Below the pieces are notes generated by a model, which searched no databases, was not told where the DNA came from, and worked only from the letters and a program-made list of their open reading frames with translations. A stretch of DNA of 64,000 bases from Candidatus Methylomicrobium oryzae (GTDB taxonomy: Bacteria > Pseudomonadota > Gammaproteobacteria > Methylococcales > Methylomonadaceae), in NCBI RefSeq assembly GCF_016745425.1, contig NZ_JAERVK010000006.1:62001-126000 (forward strand). Reading direction: 5' to 3'. Below are positions 41,946-51,492 of the stretch, piece after piece; the stretch's first letter is position 1, and each line of letters starts with the position of its first letter. A program made the position numbers and the translations under genes.

Positions 41946-42745
<800 letters not shown>

Positions 42746-42749
<4 letters not shown>

Positions 42750-43372
42750 GCGAATCCCGGCAACCGCAAGCTTCAACCAATGTGGTCTGGCACCATGCCA
42801 CCGTTACCCGCGCCCGCCGCGAGCAGTTGAACGGCCACCGCGGCGCGATCATCTGGTTTACCGGACTGTCCGGCGCCGGCAAATCGACCCTGGCTCACGC
42901 GGTCGAGGAAAAACTGCATCAGATGGGCTGCCGGACCTTCGTGCTGGACGGCGACAACGTCCGCCACGGGCTCTGCGGTGATCTGGGCTTTTCCGCAAAA
43001 GACCGGGAGGAAAATATCCGCCGGGTCGGCGAAGTGGCAAAGCTGTTCCTGGAAGCCGGCGTGATCGTGCTGACTGCATTCATCTCGCCGTACAAGGCCG
43101 ACCGTGAGCGCGTACGCGGCATGGTCGAACGCGGTGGTTTCATGGAAATCTTTTGCGACAGTCCGATAGAGGTTTGCGAGGCCAGAGACGTGAAAGGCCT
43201 CTATCAAAAAGCCCGCGCCGGCCAGATTGCGGAATTTACCGGCATTTCGTCCCCGTATGAAACGCCGGTAAATCCCGAACTGACGCTCGATACCGGCAAG
43301 CTCGATTTGGACACCTCGGTGCAATACGTGATTGAAGCGATGTTGCAGCGGCGAATGATCACCGGTCATTGA
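42746..43372 (+). CDS. cysC: Adenylylsulfate (APS) kinase CysC
   Basis: A 208-residue kinase making PAPS from APS and ATP. P-loop GLSGAGKS at 40-47, [16 protein letters not shown] after it, and [16 protein letters not shown] and [20 protein letters not shown] as in the family. The APS-forming sulfurylase genes cysD and cysN are not here, nor is a PAPS reductase gene, which argues for sulfation rather than sulfate assimilation as the local use. It overlaps cysQ by 4 bp. Confidence 0.95.
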
Positions 43373-43400: not shown

Positions 43401-45395
43401 ATGGCCTTAAAAACAGCCACCTATCGTCCGGATATAGACGGCTTGCGAGCGATTGCGATACTTTCCGTCACGGCCTATCACCTCGACATCAGTCCCTTCG
43501 GCGGCGGTTACGTCGGCGTCGACGTCTTTTTCGTCATTTCAGGTTACCTGATTACCCGGATTATTTACCGGGACATCCGGAACCGGTCTTTTTCGTACGT
43601 CGATTTTTACGAAAGAAGGATTCGCCGGATTTTTCCCGCCTTGTTCGCCGTTTTCTTCTTTTCGTCGGCGTTTGCTTATTGCATTTTCCTGCCCAAGGAT
43701 TTCCAGACTTTTTTCCAAAGCCTGGTCGCCGCCACCCTGTTCGCATCGAACCTGTTATTCTGGAAAACGGCCGGCTATTTCGATGCAGCGGCGGAATTGA
43801 AGCCTCTGCTGCATACCTGGTCGTTATCGATCGAAGAGCAGTTTTACCTGTTTTATCCGTTCCTGCTCTTTCTCGTTACCCGGCTTTCCTTGCGATGGGC
43901 CTTTGCCGTTTTAGTCGCGGCAACCTGCATTTCCCTCTTCCTGAGCGAATATTTTCTGCATGGACAATCGCCTTCGGTCTTTTACCTGCTGCACTTTCGC
44001 GCCTGGGAACTGTTGACGGGGGCTTTGCTGGCGCTCGAAGTCATCCCGCCTCTCGGTTCGCGGCCCGTAAAAGAGGCATTTTCGCTTATGGGATTAAGCG
44101 CGATCGGCTACGGCATCTTCGCATTCAACGACCAGACGCTCTTTCCCGGAGCCAAGGCGCTGTTTCCCTGCCTCGGTACGGCCTTGATCATTTATGCCGA
44201 TTCGCACGGCCGAACCGTCGTCGGCCGTTTGCTGGGCAGCAAACCGGCGGTAGCCGTCGGATTGGTCTCCTATTCCTTATACCTTTGGCATTGGCCTCTC
44301 ATCGTCTTTGCAAAATATTACGCAATACGGCCATTCACCATTCATGAAAAACTTGTGCTATTGCTAACTTCATGTGTGTTGGCAGGTTTGTCGTGGAAAT
44401 ATATCGAAAGGCCATTTCGAGGAAAAAGCGGCCTCTTCTCCCAAAAACAGCTTTTCGGGGGCGCCGGAGCCATGATGACAGGCTTCGTTTCCATCGGATT
44501 AGCCGGCCATCTCAACAAAGGTTTTCCGGGGCGGCTGCCGGAAGACATCGTCAGATTGGCCGAAGCGGCATATCAAGTCAGACAAGTGGACGGCAGTTGC
44601 ATCGACGTTTCGTCAAAACGGCTCGCCAGCGGACAAACCTGTAAAATCGGCAAAATCGCTTCGGATAATATCAGCTTCATCGTCTGGGGCGATTCGCATG
44701 CATTCTCGATGGCCGAATCGATACACCTCGCCGCCGAAAAAAAAGGGCTGACAGGCTTATTATATTCGCACAGCAGTTGTCCGCCTCTGCTCGATGTCGA
44801 ACGTTTCAATGCCTTCGAACGCGGCTGCCGCGAGTTTAACGAGTCGGTCAAACAGTGGCTGGAAAAAAACCCGAATATCCGCACCGTTTTCCTGGTCGCG
44901 CGCTGGGCCATATCGGCGGAAGGGACAAGATACGGAACCGAGCAGGGCCGGCCGGTCGTAATCTCTCCGGAGGGCATCAAAGGCAACCCGCGGACTTTGA
45001 AGAACGGTCTGGAAAAAACCCTGCGTTTTTTAACCGATCGAGGGATCCGGGCGGTTTTCGTCAACCAAGTCCCCGAAATCGGCTGGAATGTACCGTCGAC
45101 GCTGGCAAGAGAGCGCTTATTCGGACATAACGTATCCGGGGCGGCGCCTACCCTCGAAGATTACCGAAAACGGCAGTTCAAGATGAGCAGGATCGTTGAC
45201 GAACTGGATCCGCTTTATTCGTTCAAAGTCGTGGACGTCGCCTCCGCGCTCTGCGCCCGGACGCGTTGCCTGATGGAGAAAGACGGCTATTCGCTGTACA
45301 AGGATGACGACCACTTGAGCATCTACGGTGCCTCCTTCCTGTCCGACCTGTTCTCAGACTTTTTTCAAGAAATCCCTCCCGGCCTCCCTGGATGA
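43401..45395 (+). CDS. O-acyltransferase, OafA/YrhL type with C-terminal SGNH domain
   Basis: A 664-residue membrane protein. The N-terminal Acyl_transf_3 domain (about 1-350) has about ten membrane segments and starts with YRPDIDGLRAIAILSVTAYH, which carries the catalytic-type arginine and histidine; FFVISGYLITRIIYRDI and LKPLLHTWSLSIEEQFYLFYP follow. A periplasmic SGNH domain (about 400-660) has the GDSH block near 430 and the DDDH pair near 635-637. Proteins of this design O-acetylate LPS or other surface glycans. It overlaps the next gene by 4 bp. Confidence 0.92.
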   Translation: MALKTATYRPDIDGLRAIAILSVTAYHLDISPFGGGYVGVDVFFVISGYLITRIIYRDIRNRSFSYVDFYERRIRRIFPALFAVFFFSSAFAYCIFLPKDFQTFFQSLVAATLFASNLLFWKTAGYFDAAAELKPLLHTWSLSIEEQFYLFYPFLLFLVTRLSLRWAFAVLVAATCISLFLSEYFLHGQSPSVFYLLHFRAWELLTGALLALEVIPPLGSRPVKEAFSLMGLSAIGYGIFAFNDQTLFPGAKALFPCLGTALIIYADSHGRTVVGRLLGSKPAVAVGLVSYSLYLWHWPLIVFAKYYAIRPFTIHEKLVLLLTSCVLAGLSWKYIERPFRGKSGLFSQKQLFGGAGAMMTGFVSIGLAGHLNKGFPGRLPEDIVRLAEAAYQVRQVDGSCIDVSSKRLASGQTCKIGKIASDNISFIVWGDSHAFSMAESIHLAAEKKGLTGLLYSHSSCPPLLDVERFNAFERGCREFNESVKQWLEKNPNIRTVFLVARWAISAEGTRYGTEQGRPVVISPEGIKGNPRTLKNGLEKTLRFLTDRGIRAVFVNQVPEIGWNVPSTLARERLFGHNVSGAAPTLEDYRKRQFKMSRIVDELDPLYSFKVVDVASALCARTRCLMEKDGYSLYKDDDHLSIYGASFLSDLFSDFFQEIPPGLPG

Positions 45396-46564
45396 AAACG
45401 CTCACCTCTTCAAAAGACCTGGCAATCAACGGCGCACCTCCCTGTTTTACCGCCCCCCTGCATGTGGGGCGCCCGAACATCGGCAGTCGGGAAGATTTTA
45501 TGAAATTGGCGTCGGACATTTTCGAACGCCGCTGGCTCAGCAATAACGGCCCGCTGGTGCAGGAACTGGAAAAGCGGATTGCCGATTTCCTGGGCGTAAA
45601 GCACTGCGTCGCGATCTGCAACGGCACCGTCGCGCTGGAAATCGCAATCAGGGCGCTAGAGCTTGAAGGCGAAGTGATCGTGCCGTCCTATACCTTCATC
45701 GCGACCGCGCATGCGTTGCAATGGCAGGCCATCACCCCGGTTTTCGCCGATATCGATCCGAAAACCCATGCGCTGGATCCAGCAGCGGTGCGACGGATGA
45801 TCACGCCGAAGACGACGGGCATCATCGGCGTCCATCTCTGGGGCAATACCGCGCCGATTGAAGAACTTCAAGAAATCGCCGACGAGTTCAGGCTCAACCT
45901 GCTGTTCGATGCGGCGCATGCCTTTGCCTGTTCGCACCGCGGGCAAATGATCGGCAATTTCGGACGCTGCGAAGTATTCAGCTTCCATGCGACCAAATTC
46001 TTCAATACCTTCGAAGGCGGCGCGGTGGCCACGAACGACGATGCGCTGGCCGAAACGATGCGGCTGATGCGCAATTTCGGTTTTGCCGGTTTCGACAATG
46101 TCGTCTATTCCGGCACCAACGGCAAGATGATCGAAATCGCCGCGGCGATGGGACTGGTCAATCTGGATGCGATCGAGGGAGTCATCGAAATCAACCGCCG
46201 TAATTATGAACATTACCGGCAGGAACTCGCCGGACTGCCGGGCATCACTCTGCTCGGTTTCGACGAGAGCGAACGGAGGAATTTTCAATACGTGGTCATC
46301 GAAGTCGGCACGGGCTGCCCCGTCAATCGTGATAGAATCATCGAAACGCTTCATGCCGAAAATGTCCTGGCACGCAAATATTTCTGGCCGGGCTGCCATC
46401 AAATGAAGCCTTACCGCGATCTTTACCCGGATGCCGGCTTGTCGCTGCCGAATACGATCACCGTGGCGGACAAAGTCATTGTGCTGCCGACCGGCACCGC
46501 GGTCGACGAACAAGACATCATCGCCATCTGCGCGATCATACGGATATTGATAGCGGGCCAATAA
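45392..46564 (+). CDS. DegT/DnrJ/EryC1 sugar aminotransferase, VioA-like
   Basis: A 390-residue PLP-dependent enzyme that should convert a nucleotide-linked keto sugar to an amino sugar. The PLP lysine is K202 in FSFHATKFFNTFEGG, and CNGTVALEIAIRAL and DAAHAFACSHRGQMIGNFG are family motifs. The FHATKFFNTFEGGA wording recalls VioA-type enzymes that make dTDP-4-amino-4,6-dideoxyglucose, but the dTDP-sugar genes rmlA and rmlB are not in the window. An LpxD-like acyltransferase starts directly after the stop, so the amino group is probably N-acylated. Confidence 0.88.
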   Translation: MKTLTSSKDLAINGAPPCFTAPLHVGRPNIGSREDFMKLASDIFERRWLSNNGPLVQELEKRIADFLGVKHCVAICNGTVALEIAIRALELEGEVIVPSYTFIATAHALQWQAITPVFADIDPKTHALDPAAVRRMITPKTTGIIGVHLWGNTAPIEELQEIADEFRLNLLFDAAHAFACSHRGQMIGNFGRCEVFSFHATKFFNTFEGGAVATNDDALAETMRLMRNFGFAGFDNVVYSGTNGKMIEIAAAMGLVNLDAIEGVIEINRRNYEHYRQELAGLPGITLLGFDESERRNFQYVVIEVGTGCPVNRDRIIETLHAENVLARKYFWPGCHQMKPYRDLYPDAGLSLPNTITVADKVIVLPTGTAVDEQDIIAICAIIRILIAGQ

Positions 46565-47512
46565 ATGGAATTGATACGATTTACCAAGACTTTTTTACTG
46601 AACGAGCTCATCGCGCTGGCAAAAAAGACCGTAGGCCCGGATGTTCTGTTCGAAACCCGGACCGGCAGTGAGGACGATCGGCCGGTTTTGGGCGTCACCA
46701 ACGGGCGCAGCGCCGCATCCGGCGCTTTGTGCTTCGTAGACCGGCCTCCGCCGCCCGAGTCGCTGGCTAAACTGGAATCGGCCGTCGTGATGACCAATCG
46801 GCAAATTGCCCCGTTATTACCCGGCTGCCCGTTGATCGTCACCGAAGATCCGCGCGCGATGTTTATCGACTGCCTCGAACGCATCCGCACGGCCCGGGGC
46901 TTTGCGCCGTTTTCGTCCCTCATCGAGGCGGCTCCCGGCATTCATCCCAATGCCCGTATCCATCCCGGCGCGGTGATCGAAGAAGGCGTCTCTATCGGCG
47001 ACGGAACCCAAGTCGCCGCCGGTTGCGTGATCAAGCAAGGCGCGTCCATCGGCAACGCGGTCACGATCCGCGAAAATACGGTAATCGGCACCGACGGCAT
47101 TGCCCTGTACAAGGCGGAAGACGGCCGCGTACTCCGCTTTCCGCATCTTGCGGGCGTCATCATCGGGGACCATGCCGAAATCGGCGCTTCCTGCGTGATC
47201 TCGCGGGGCGTATTGAATGCCACCCGGGTCGGGCGGGACGCGGTGATCGGCAACCTGTCCAATGTAGGCCATGCCGCGCAAATCGGAGACAAGGTTTGGA
47301 TGTCGGTCGGCTGCATGATAGGAGGCAATACGGCCATCGGCGAGCGGAGCACCTTGGGCCTGGGCGTCTGCGTCCGCGATAACTTAGATGTGGGCAGGGA
47401 CTGCTCGATCGGCATGGGATCGGTCGTAGTGAACGACATGCCCGACAACCATTCGGTTTTCGGGAACCCGGCGCGCCGCCTGCCCGACGTTAAAGCGGGC
47501 CCCGATCGATAA
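46565..47512 (+). CDS. LpxD-like N-acyltransferase with left-handed beta-helix
   Basis: A 315-residue protein with an N-terminal domain (about 1-115) similar in place to the LpxD uridine-binding domain and hexapeptide repeats from about 118 to 300 (GVSIGDGTQVAAGCVIKQGA and onward). The LpxD-type histidine appears in NLSNVGHAAQIGDKVWMS (about 235-252), and the end FGNPARRLP is common in sugar acyltransferases. It is not the housekeeping lpxD (no bamA, skp or fabZ near). Its position after the aminotransferase and before KAS III and ACP genes suggests it moves a special acyl group from ACP to the amino sugar. Confidence 0.8.
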   Translation: MELIRFTKTFLLNELIALAKKTVGPDVLFETRTGSEDDRPVLGVTNGRSAASGALCFVDRPPPPESLAKLESAVVMTNRQIAPLLPGCPLIVTEDPRAMFIDCLERIRTARGFAPFSSLIEAAPGIHPNARIHPGAVIEEGVSIGDGTQVAAGCVIKQGASIGNAVTIRENTVIGTDGIALYKAEDGRVLRFPHLAGVIIGDHAEIGASCVISRGVLNATRVGRDAVIGNLSNVGHAAQIGDKVWMSVGCMIGGNTAIGERSTLGLGVCVRDNLDVGRDCSIGMGSVVVNDMPDNHSVFGNPARRLPDVKAGPDR

Positions 47513-47534
47513 ACCTCATCCGGAAGCATTTATC

Positions 47535-48137
47535 ATGCAGATCAGACAAGTCGAATTTCAATTCAAAGGCGCCCGGAACTATATCCAGGGGCCCGACCTT
47601 TTCAATGCGATGGTGGATCTGGGGTATCCGCCCGAAGATTTGCGGAATATTCGTTTTCTCGCCCATCAATTCGTCAGCTCGCCGGTTTGCGCGCTTTATT
47701 CGACGAACGATAAGGAGGAATTGAGCCGCATTCCGGACATCCATGCACGCTGCCAGCTTGAAGCCGGCGGCGTCCCCTACTGGATAGCGCTCAAGCCGCT
47801 CACGGCCGAGGACTCCGGCAAACGCGGCGATTATGATGAAGACAGCCTGATCGCCTTATGCCGATGGCAGGGAGAGACGATCAGCCTGACCCGGCCCAGC
47901 CCTTTCACCTTCATCGAAACCGTCGTGTCGATGAACAAGCACATGCATCAGCGATTGTTTCCCGATGCGGCGGGCAAATGGATCTTCACGCGCATCGACC
48001 TCGATGTGGGCTGTGCGGAGCGCCAACATCTGGAATTGCACTTCAAACACAACATGAACTACCGCCTGACCAAAAGCGAAATCCTGGCGAACGGGCAAAA
48101 ACTCGGCAATCTTTATTTTTCCCTGGTGAAATCATGA
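47535..48137 (+). CDS. Unrecognised protein of the acyl-sugar module
   Basis: A 200-residue soluble protein with no signal or membrane segment and no family I recognise. It appears to consist of two similar-sized alpha/beta halves (about 1-95 and 110-200), with FTFIETVVSMNKHMHQRLFP leading to a strand KWIFTRIDLDVG in the second half; a double hot-dog fold is conceivable, but only by eye. Its stop overlaps the ketoacyl-ACP synthase III start by 4 bp (ATGA), so it probably works in acyl-chain making or transfer. Confidence 0.7.
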   Translation: MQIRQVEFQFKGARNYIQGPDLFNAMVDLGYPPEDLRNIRFLAHQFVSSPVCALYSTNDKEELSRIPDIHARCQLEAGGVPYWIALKPLTAEDSGKRGDYDEDSLIALCRWQGETISLTRPSPFTFIETVVSMNKHMHQRLFPDAAGKWIFTRIDLDVGCAERQHLELHFKHNMNYRLTKSEILANGQKLGNLYFSLVKS

Positions 48138-49072
48138 TTGGCATACAGGCGATCGGCACCTATATTCCCTCCGGACGGATCGACAACCGGCTGAAAACCG
48201 CAAAATTCGAAATCGACGAAACCTTTCTGACCGAAAAAACCGGCGCGCTGCGCAGCGCAGTCAAAGCCGAAGACGAGGATACTTCCGATTTATGCTGCAA
48301 AGCCTTCTACGATCTGCAGCAGAAAACCGGACTTCAGCCCGGCCGGATCGAATGCGCGGTCGTCTGCACCCAAAATCCGGACAACCGGGGCCTGCCGCAT
48401 ACCTCGGCCATCGTGCACGGCAAACTGGGCCTGCCCGAGTCGTGCGCGGTGTTCGACATATCGCTCGGCTGCTCCGGTTTCGTGTACGGCCTATCGGTGA
48501 TCCAGGCCTTCATGCAGGCCAACGGTTTTACCACGGGCGTCCTGTTTACGGCCGACCCCTACTCGAAAATCGTGAATCCGGAGGATAAGAATACCAGTCT
48601 GCTGTTCGGGGACGGCGCCGCGGCGACGCTGATCGGTAACGACCCGGTCTGGACCACCGGCAAGTTTTTATTCGGCTCGCAAGGCAAGGAACACGCTTCC
48701 ATTCGAATCGGCACCCCGGACGGCAAATTGGAGATGAACGGCAGGGCGGTCTTTTCGTTTTCCGCCACGGTCGTGCCGAAAAATATTCTGGCGATGCTTG
48801 AATCCAACCGCTTGACTGTAGAGGATATCGACCTGTTTGCGCTGCATCAGGGCAGCCGATATATCGTCGATACGATCAAAAAGAAACTCGCCGTCGAAGA
48901 CCGCAAAGCGCCGTTTGTCGCGGCCGACTACGGGAATACCGTATCGTCCTCGATTCCGCTGATTTTAAGCGACCCTGGCAACGCTTCCTGCAGCACGGTC
49001 GTGATTGCCGGCTTCGGCGTCGGCTTGTCGTGGGCCAGTACGGTTTTATTTAAAGTGAATAAAGGAAAATAA
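48134..49072 (+). CDS. 3-oxoacyl-ACP synthase III family protein (FabH-like)
   Basis: A 312-residue KAS III with an intact Cys-His-Asn triad: C113 (DISLGCSGFVYG), H238 (FALHQGS), N268 (DYGNTVSS). It should condense an acyl-CoA with malonyl-ACP. The frame is open from 47858, but the earlier part is shadow; the ATG at 48134 gives MIGIQAIGTYIP, the normal beginning. A dedicated ACP gene follows after 3 bp. The setting in a polysaccharide operon argues for a special short acyl group rather than bulk fatty acid synthesis. Confidence 0.92.
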   Translation: MIGIQAIGTYIPSGRIDNRLKTAKFEIDETFLTEKTGALRSAVKAEDEDTSDLCCKAFYDLQQKTGLQPGRIECAVVCTQNPDNRGLPHTSAIVHGKLGLPESCAVFDISLGCSGFVYGLSVIQAFMQANGFTTGVLFTADPYSKIVNPEDKNTSLLFGDGAAATLIGNDPVWTTGKFLFGSQGKEHASIRIGTPDGKLEMNGRAVFSFSATVVPKNILAMLESNRLTVEDIDLFALHQGSRYIVDTIKKKLAVEDRKAPFVAADYGNTVSSSIPLILSDPGNASCSTVVIAGFGVGLSWASTVLFKVNKGK

Positions 49073-49075
49073 TCC

Positions 49076-49315
49076 ATGCATGCAACTCAACAGGACATTA
49101 TCTCGATCTTGGAAAATGCCGGCTTGTCGGCCGACGTTTCGGCGATTCAAGGAAACACGGACTTAATCAAGGAAGCCGGTATCGATTCCCTGGAAATGAT
49201 GAGCGTGTATCTCGGCATCGAGGAAAAATTCGGCATTCATATTCCGGATCAGGATCTGGACCGGCTCGATACGATAGACAACATTATCCAATACCTGCAG
49301 AAGCTGCCTGAATAA
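49076..49315 (+). CDS. Acyl carrier protein
   Basis: A 79-residue carrier protein with the phosphopantetheine site S38 in EAGIDSLEMMSVYLGIEEKFGI. The canonical DSL motif is kept. It directly follows the KAS III gene, which suggests a private carrier for that enzyme and the LpxD-like transferase. Confidence 0.92.
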   Translation: MHATQQDIISILENAGLSADVSAIQGNTDLIKEAGIDSLEMMSVYLGIEEKFGIHIPDQDLDRLDTIDNIIQYLQKLPE

Positions 49316-50823: not shown

Positions 50824-51492
50824 ATGAATATGACAGGTTTTTTAAAGACTCAACTGGGGAAATGTCTTTTTTTCACAAGAAAAAAGATATTCTGCATCGG
50901 TGCGAACAAAACAGGCACGACCTCGATCGCCGAAGTTTTTCGCTCACTCGGACTCAGGGTCGGCGACCAGGGAAAGGCGGAGCTGCTGCTACACGACTGG
51001 GCGAAACGGGATTTTCGAAAAATTATCCGCTACTGCCGCCGGGCGGAAGCTTTCCAGGATATCCCTTTCAGTTATCCGGATACCTATCGCGCGCTCGATG
51101 CCGCCTATCCCGGCTCGAAATTTATTTTGACCGTACGCAATAATGCCGACGAGTGGTACGAGTCTTTAGTGCGTTTTCACAGCAAATTGGTCGGTAAAAG
51201 CCGCATTCCGACCGCCGCGGACCTTCGGGAATACGATTACCGCTATCCCGGCTTTCTCTGGGATGCACAGAAACTCCGCTATGGTGCAAACGAATCGTCG
51301 CTGTACGACCGCGAACTGTACACCCGCTGCTATGAAGAACATAACCGGGCGGTGATCGATTATTTCAAAGACAGGCCGGACGACCTGTTGGTGTTGGATA
51401 TTTCCCAAGCCGATGCGATGGAAAAATTGCTGAACTTTTTGGGCTACCCTTATAACGGGCAAACGATGCCCCATGCCAACTCTTCGAAATAA
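50824..51492 (+). CDS. PAPS-dependent sulfotransferase
   Basis: A 222-residue enzyme of the bacterial/eukaryotic-type sulfotransferase fold. The 5'-phosphosulfate loop reads CIGANKTGTTSIAEVFRSLG (about 24-43), and the 3'-phosphate site is FILTVRNNADEWYESLVRFH (about 100-119). It should sulfate a sugar of the surface polysaccharide or a lipid-linked intermediate in the cytoplasm. The APS kinase and PAP phosphatase genes at the head of the operon supply the donor and remove the by-product. Confidence 0.85.
   Translation: MNMTGFLKTQLGKCLFFTRKKIFCIGANKTGTTSIAEVFRSLGLRVGDQGKAELLLHDWAKRDFRKIIRYCRRAEAFQDIPFSYPDTYRALDAAYPGSKFILTVRNNADEWYESLVRFHSKLVGKSRIPTAADLREYDYRYPGFLWDAQKLRYGANESSLYDRELYTRCYEEHNRAVIDYFKDRPDDLLVLDISQADAMEKLLNFLGYPYNGQTMPHANSSK

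Follow-up and report, generated by a model that had tools for sequence, protein, structure and literature searches.

What do an aminotransferase, an acyltransferase, a protein outside the known families, a ketoacyl synthase and an acyl carrier protein make together? This question is raised by a stretch of 64,000 nucleotides from Candidatus Methylomicrobium oryzae (contig NZ_JAERVK010000006.1, positions 62,001 to 126,000), which we refer to in its whole length as the window. Five consecutive open reading frames (ORFs) at 45392-49315 encode these proteins. An earlier note on this DNA had read them as a set that makes an amino sugar, builds a short special acyl-ACP and moves it to the amine. We consider it probable that they form, within a cluster for a surface polysaccharide, a module dedicated to N-acylation. 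Antigenicity and phage binding are affected where surface sugars bear N-acyl groups larger than acetyl, and to our knowledge the synthesis of the donors for such groups is known for few systems. The five genes are as follows.

45392-46564, + strand: DegT/DnrJ/EryC1 aminotransferase, DesI/VioA-like (PF01041, 352.6 bits)
46565-47512, + strand: predicted LpxD-like hexapeptide N-acyltransferase (Hexapep; weak LpxD N-domain, 25.4 bits, cut-off 30.8)
47535-48137, + strand: protein of 200 amino acids (aa), predicted double hotdog and part of the cassette core (no family matched; AlphaFold2 model), labelled DUF in the following
48134-49072, + strand: KAS III, member of the beta-ketoacyl-acyl carrier protein synthase III subfamily (PF08545 and PF08541 above cut-off; Cys-His-Asn)
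49076-49315, + strand: acyl carrier protein (ACP) with a DSL phosphopantetheine motif (PF00550, 36.1 bits, above cut-off)

None of the five ORFs contains an internal stop, and they are spaced by 0, 22, −4 and 3 nucleotides (nt), which agrees with the consecutive and coupled arrangement described in the earlier note. The spacing of −4 nt lies between DUF and KAS III and consists of an ATGA, in which the start of the KAS III gene overlaps the stop of the DUF gene.

Recurrence of the core in 18 loci

Searching via DUF alone we found 18 non-redundant loci, the window included. Four further loci were counted once as duplicates (L017, with the same scores as L016; L015, equal to L007; L020, equal to L009; and L024, from the species of L010), and L036 and L037 were not used in the counts. 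At all 18 loci a KAS III gene of the same subfamily lies directly downstream of DUF, and the other 17 KAS III proteins are 41-79% identical to the one in the window. The 4 nt start/stop overlap between DUF and KAS III is found in 12 of the loci, the other six having spacings of −14 to +19 nt. An ACP gene is likewise present near every DUF gene, at 2.3 kb distance in L025 and as a weak match (16 bits) in L026. Chance adjacency of the module genes was rejected because of this recurrence of the core.

The genes around the core vary. The transferase adjoining it is LpxD-like or of the hexapeptide type at 15 loci and AAC(3)-like (PF02522) at two, L019 and L034, while no acyltransferase adjoins the cassette in L023. 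Within the stretches read, the amine source is an aminotransferase at 13 of the 18 loci, a locus with NeuB and a cytidylyltransferase in L035, and a PIG-L deacetylase adjoining DUF in L025. KAS III and ACP are present throughout, and the full set of five genes is not constant. In L019 (143-3995) and L034 (8159-11450) the PF02522 transferase replaces the LpxD-like enzyme and stands alongside a DUF4910/DUF2172/HTH_47 protein.

The aminotransferases themselves also differ between loci. They are DesI-like in L007 (495 bits) and, through likeness to the window protein, in L006 and L008 (681 and 650 bits), and DesI is the best-scoring family, more weakly, in L016, L021 and L026 (248-289 bits). The one of L034 is a PseC (582 bits, cut-off 423.5), and those of L010, L018, L023, L027 and L033 score below any family cut-off. 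FdtA/QdtA cupins, which mark 3-amino pathways, are encoded in L010, L027 and L033. Around a constant core of DUF, KAS III and ACP, the acyltransferase and the amine source vary; as far as sequence comparison can tell, this core therefore resembles a portable cassette that provides acyl donors for N-acylated sugars. The outline of the earlier note (amino sugar, special acyl-ACP, transfer to the amine) is well supported, in that the core is found at loci whose amines sit at different positions and next to acyltransferases of different kinds and that RmlA and RmlB are encoded in the genome; the identity of the acyl group, and that it is other than acetyl, is a prediction. With its marker protein, such a portable cassette would allow sugars with N-acyl groups larger than acetyl to be predicted from genomes across phyla.

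Correlations between the distance matrices of the five proteins agree with a division into two units. The values of r are 0.84 for DUF and KAS III, 0.83 for ACP and DUF and 0.82 for ACP and KAS III on the one side and 0.80 for aminotransferase and LpxD-like enzyme on the other; between the LpxD-like enzyme and the core r is 0.62-0.72 and between the aminotransferase and the core 0.47-0.53. These values include the kinship of the genomes, and for each of the ten pairs r is higher than in nearly all permutations. The evolutionary unit thus appears to be the hotdog protein together with KAS III and ACP.

The DUF family is rare and patchy. It was present in five of 301 genomes of the order, four of 369 of the class and one of 398 of the phylum draw; each count includes the genome of the window, which is the sole match of the phylum draw, and the sampling is thin. 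DUF was also found in one of 72,556 plasmid records and at 13 loci in GTDB contigs. Carriers are Methylococcales, other Gammaproteobacteria, Pontibrevibacter, Synechococcus RCC307 and two metagenome-assembled genomes, one from the Phycisphaerae and one from the Balneolaceae. Cultivated carriers include Thiomicrorhabdus sp. Milos-T2, Synechococcus sp. RCC307 and Pontibrevibacter nitratireducens.

The hotdog protein and its partner enzymes

DUF matched no Pfam, NCBIfam or PHROGs family and is therefore as unfamiliar as the earlier note had stated; its only matches among the PDB sequences were two at E about 0.6, both Abl interactor 2. The AlphaFold2 model, calculated from an alignment of 13 sequences (12 relatives), has a predicted local distance difference test score (pLDDT) of 93.4 and a predicted template modelling score (pTM) of 0.90. 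Foldseek and VIA place it next to TesB-type thioesterases and dehydratase domains of polyketide synthases (PKS), together with one pyran synthase. The TesB-type thioesterase 4r9z gives a VIA Z of 12.2 with a root mean square deviation (rmsd) of 3.5 over 169 aligned residues, and the PKS dehydratase domains give Z of about 9-12 with an rmsd of about 3.5-4 over about 160-175 residues. As VIA rows within 1 Z were counted as tied, the two groups are equally near. DUF is therefore predicted from its model to be a double hotdog, with two hotdog units in one chain. Further double-hotdog enzymes that share the predicted fold are LnmK, which is named in PMC8666670, and presumably AfsA.

Residue conservation was counted in 17 DUF sequences, leaving out L034, of which only the C-terminal part is in one frame. 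Arg14, Gly19, Asp21, Glu102, Lys135, Trp149, Gly191 and Phe195 are invariant in all 17. Glu128, which sits in the second hotdog helix, is found in 16 and is Asp in the remaining one. There is no conserved His, the best columns reaching eight of the 17 sequences, and therefore no canonical dehydratase dyad of His with Asp or Glu. DUF thus shares the predicted fold of TesB thioesterases and PKS dehydratase domains but neither a sequence family match nor a conserved His. A FabZ-like enzyme was ruled out by sequence, since the DUF profile misses E. coli FabZ and a conserved His is lacking, and a known phage protein family was rejected since a search of PHROGs, made without padloc, gave no match. 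In L034 (6348-7005) DUF is open in its C-terminal part only, so that either the gene is broken or the assembly contains an error.

KAS III, which accompanies DUF at all 18 loci, has counterparts of the E. coli FabH residues Cys112, His244 and Asn274, in keeping with the intact Cys-His-Asn triad given in the earlier note. These residues are kept in all 20 aligned KAS III sequences (the 18 cassette members and plasmid sequences of P. veronii and Azospirillum, with E. coli FabH as reference). Together with PF08545 and PF08541, both over their cut-offs, this places the protein in the KAS III superfamily. FabH and the window KAS III share these features but only 22% identity, the score against FabH TIGR00747 is 168.3 bits (cut-off 292.1), and the positions of FabH that presumably bind coenzyme A (CoA) are mostly changed. 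The phosphopantetheine serine is kept in all 18 cassette ACPs, and the full DSL in 17 of them.

For the window aminotransferase the best NCBIfam family is DesI, TIGR04427, with 496 bits (below the cut-off of 650), which is 296 bits ahead of the next family. The best solved relative is 2po3 (376 bits), named '4-dehydrase' by its depositors, which we take to be DesI. From these similarities the product is predicted to be dTDP-4-amino-4,6-dideoxyglucose (viosamine). RmlB (512 bits) and RmlA (517 bits) are encoded at most 3 kb apart on another contig of the same genome (C7), and therefore the dTDP-sugar substrate can be made.

The LpxD-like enzyme, which is predicted to acylate the 4-amine, resembles LpxD, the N-acyltransferase of lipid A, in its N-domain, the left-handed helix and the catalytic His239 (E. 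coli LpxD numbering). This His is kept in all 11 aligned cassette transferases, window included; 15 loci have a transferase of the LpxD-like or hexapeptide type, and the alignment left out those of L006, L008, L033 and L035. The enzyme differs from LpxD in scoring below the cut-off (TIGR01853, 150.9 bits, cut-off 242.5) and in lacking His276 and Met290, which are kept in none of the 11. According to the alignment, the C-terminal extension of E. coli LpxD and about one helix coil are also missing. In the VIA comparison the model of this enzyme ranks LpxD first, with Z 15.3 but an rmsd of 18.7, the model being poor (pLDDT 72, tail below 50). Relatives include the hexapeptide acetyltransferases VioB and QdtC and the perosamine and bacillosamine N-acetyltransferases.

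The acyl group and the role of the hotdog protein

Sugar N-acylation with a KAS III and an own ACP is already known, and the nearest known systems are the viosamine island of Pseudomonas syringae pv. tabaci 6605 and the glycosylation island of P. aeruginosa PAK. The viosamine island is described in PMC3927599 as vioA, vioM, vioT, vioS, vioB, vioR and acp; its product is Qui4N with a 3-hydroxy-1-oxobutyl group, and the ketoreductase VioR is needed for the modified viosamine. According to this description, island and window have in common a clustered 4-aminotransferase, a KAS III, an N-acyltransferase and an own ACP. The likeness to viosamine clusters noted earlier therefore holds, whereas the own carrier, which had been taken as a difference, does not set the window apart, since the island also has an acp gene (PMC3927599). 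What seems to differ here is the hotdog protein, the VioR-type reductase, which was not found, and the longer LpxD-like transferase: none of the seven island ORFs bears a name like DUF (a comparison by name, not by sequence), VioR faces a window without a FabG-like ORF in 64 kb, and VioB has 213 aa compared with 315 aa for the window enzyme (PMC3927599). The Acinetobacter lga, psa and qhb modules, which put 3-hydroxybutanoyl on the amine of Leg, Pse or QuiNAc4N, are sugar-gene sets as tabulated in PMC9676051, the main text of which does not contain the term 'acyl carrier'. The flagellin islands of Aeromonas and Enterobacteriaceae, as presented in PMC7874193 and PMC4875605, differ from the window module in gene make-up, having ACP and reductase genes, a CoA-ligase/AMP-dependent synthetase and Lux-type genes. 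In the open-licence literature we found no publication on a cassette of DUF, KAS III and ACP among the matches listed, as far as titles and the opening lines of abstracts show.

From the gene set we infer the following route. The starting sugar, dTDP-4-keto-6-deoxyglucose, would come from RmlA and RmlB, whose genes lie outside the window, and the aminotransferase would turn it into dTDP-4-amino-4,6-dideoxyglucose. KAS III would join a short acyl-CoA, most likely acetyl-CoA, to malonyl on the private ACP, and the resulting 3-oxoacyl-ACP would most likely be reduced by the housekeeping FabG to (R)-3-hydroxybutanoyl-ACP. The double-hotdog protein, presumably made together with KAS III, would bind or tailor the acyl-ACP and act at least in gatekeeping or editing. 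The LpxD-like enzyme would then acylate the amine from this donor, and the N-acylated sugar would enter the repeat unit that the neighbouring Wzx exports.

Our best guess for the acyl group is 3-hydroxybutanoyl, made via the housekeeping FabG, because Qui4N, 3-amino sugars and Pse/Leg-type amines carry this group in characterised systems (PMC3927599 and PMC9676051 for their respective sugars; for 3-amino-3,6-dideoxygalactose, a title cited in the reference list of PMC3628348). A hint to a C4 chain might come from L031 (6136-9930), a Pseudomonas veronii plasmid without DUF. There, a KAS III 47% identical to that of the window is encoded directly after a PhaC-like polymerase gene, and a FabG-like reductase two genes further upstream, as if 3-hydroxybutyrate were made from malonyl units.

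Several observations weigh against this route. Trp32 of FabH is changed in all 18 cassette KAS III proteins (to Phe in 17), Arg36 is Lys in 17 and Arg151 is Lys in 16 of them, and Phe87 is replaced by Leu, Ile or Val in all 18. We take Trp32, Arg36 and Arg151 to be CoA-binding positions of E. coli FabH and Phe87 to be a residue of its primer pocket; therefore, a primer other than acetyl-CoA is possible. No amine-forming gene was recognised in L009 and L019, which are short contigs, or in the 12 kb of L022. In L059 a KAS III 51% identical to that of the window stands in an unrelated context without a recognised DUF, ACP or reductase, on a contig that starts 405 nt before the KAS III gene, so that the locus may be cut. 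Finally, a private reductase, which would be expected for 3-hydroxybutanoyl as in the viosamine island, was not found at the cassette loci. With phmmer (E 1e-3; queries E. coli FabG plus two further reductases; window ORFs of at least 50 aa) no FabG-like ORF was detected at any of the 18, the search covering all 64 kb of the window and, at the other loci, 4.6-24.6 kb of surrounding sequence. The window was thus correctly described earlier as having no ketoreductase, and a different acyl group is therefore a serious alternative.

Under this alternative the hotdog protein would tailor the KAS III product via an active site without His, by dehydration, hydration, isomerisation or acyl transfer, and the acyl group would be other than 3-hydroxybutanoyl. 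We regard this as possible rather than probable. It is consistent with the many PKS dehydratase domains and the pyran synthase among the structural neighbours, and the invariant Arg14, Asp21, Glu102 and Lys135 and the near-invariant Glu128 might provide such a site; a canonical dehydratase dyad is, however, excluded by the missing His. The reductase searches point in the same direction. Eight DUF-less loci with a related KAS III served as comparators (L031, L032, L059, L060, L061, L062, L068 and L069), and the same FabG queries gave matches near KAS III in L060, L061 and L031. In L060 and L061 the FabG-like gene directly follows a KAS III gene, and an aminotransferase is encoded there as well. 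This contrast between loci with and without DUF is suggestive, not proof, as it rests on three of eight comparators, which differ in other genes too, and the DUF loci could use the housekeeping FabG. Tentatively, and with more doubt than trust, one could go further and see in DUF the founder of a new enzyme family, which with KAS III and private ACP would replace the ketoreductase branch and make a different acyl donor, the cassette being traded across phyla and plugged into the local amino-sugar pathway and acyltransferase. The hotdog member is a candidate for acyl-ACP chemistry of a new kind, and its partners are clear.

Hotdog thioesterases such as EntH clear mis-primed carriers, and DUF could be an editing thioesterase of this kind for the private ACP. 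Such a role would fit the structural comparison, in which TesB-type thioesterases and dehydratase domains share the top rank, and the acidic residue that the second hotdog carries in its helix. We consider it rather unlikely; the coupling to KAS III (adjacent at 18 loci, overlapping by 4 nt at 12) is closer than expected of an accessory editor. It is improbable that DUF decarboxylates malonyl-ACP in the manner of MadB or LnmK and so gives acetyl-ACP as primer or donor. Hotdog decarboxylases that feed envelope sugars do exist (MadA/MadB, with acetyl-ACP going to GlmU), but their catalytic residue is given in PMC8666670 as an Asn on a conserved loop. This Asn seems to have no conserved counterpart in DUF, in which no Asn column reaches 80% of the 17 sequences, the loop being unmapped on the model. 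An ordinary N-acetyl sugar, with KAS III and ACP serving something else such as a lipid, would suit the kinship of the LpxD-like enzyme with hexapeptide acetyltransferases but is highly improbable, as a transferase adjoins the cassette at 17 of 18 loci, over different sugars and from two transferase families.

Neighbouring genes and side observations

The genes next to the N-acylation module in the window are as follows.

from 41946: CysQ-like gene (read from the ORF list, no family search)
from 42746: CysC-like gene (read from the ORF list, no family search)
43401-45395: AT3-SGNH O-acyltransferase, directly upstream of the module (family search)
from 49361: Wzx, after the module (family search)
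50824-51492: sulfotransferase (Sulfotransfer_4), after Wzx (family search)

The cluster encodes a Wzx and seems to serve a polysaccharide rather than flagellin glycosylation. The stop of the AT3-SGNH gene and the start of the aminotransferase gene share 4 nt, and in L006 a relative of 664 aa is encoded in the equivalent position.

Two groups of DUF-less comparators have other surroundings. In L032 and L062 the KAS III gene stands by large PKS-like ORFs, and in L068 and L069 the queries recognised no sugar gene and the FabG-like ORFs are kilobases away. L060 (1939-6467) encodes an aminotransferase, two KAS III, a ketoreductase, a Rieske oxygenase and a hexapeptide transferase, and possibly makes another special acyl group.

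The CysC-like protein of the window matches the annotated sulfurylase/APS (adenosine 5′-phosphosulfate) kinase of L010 with 142 bits. Altogether, genes of the sulfation type (CysC/CysQ-like, Sulfotransfer_4, sulfurylase-kinase or PF01507) accompany the cassette at seven of the 18 loci, a count for which the background rate was not measured: the window (41946-43372 and 50824-51492), L006, L008, L010, L021, L026 and L027. A sulfated N-acyl sugar is a possible product.

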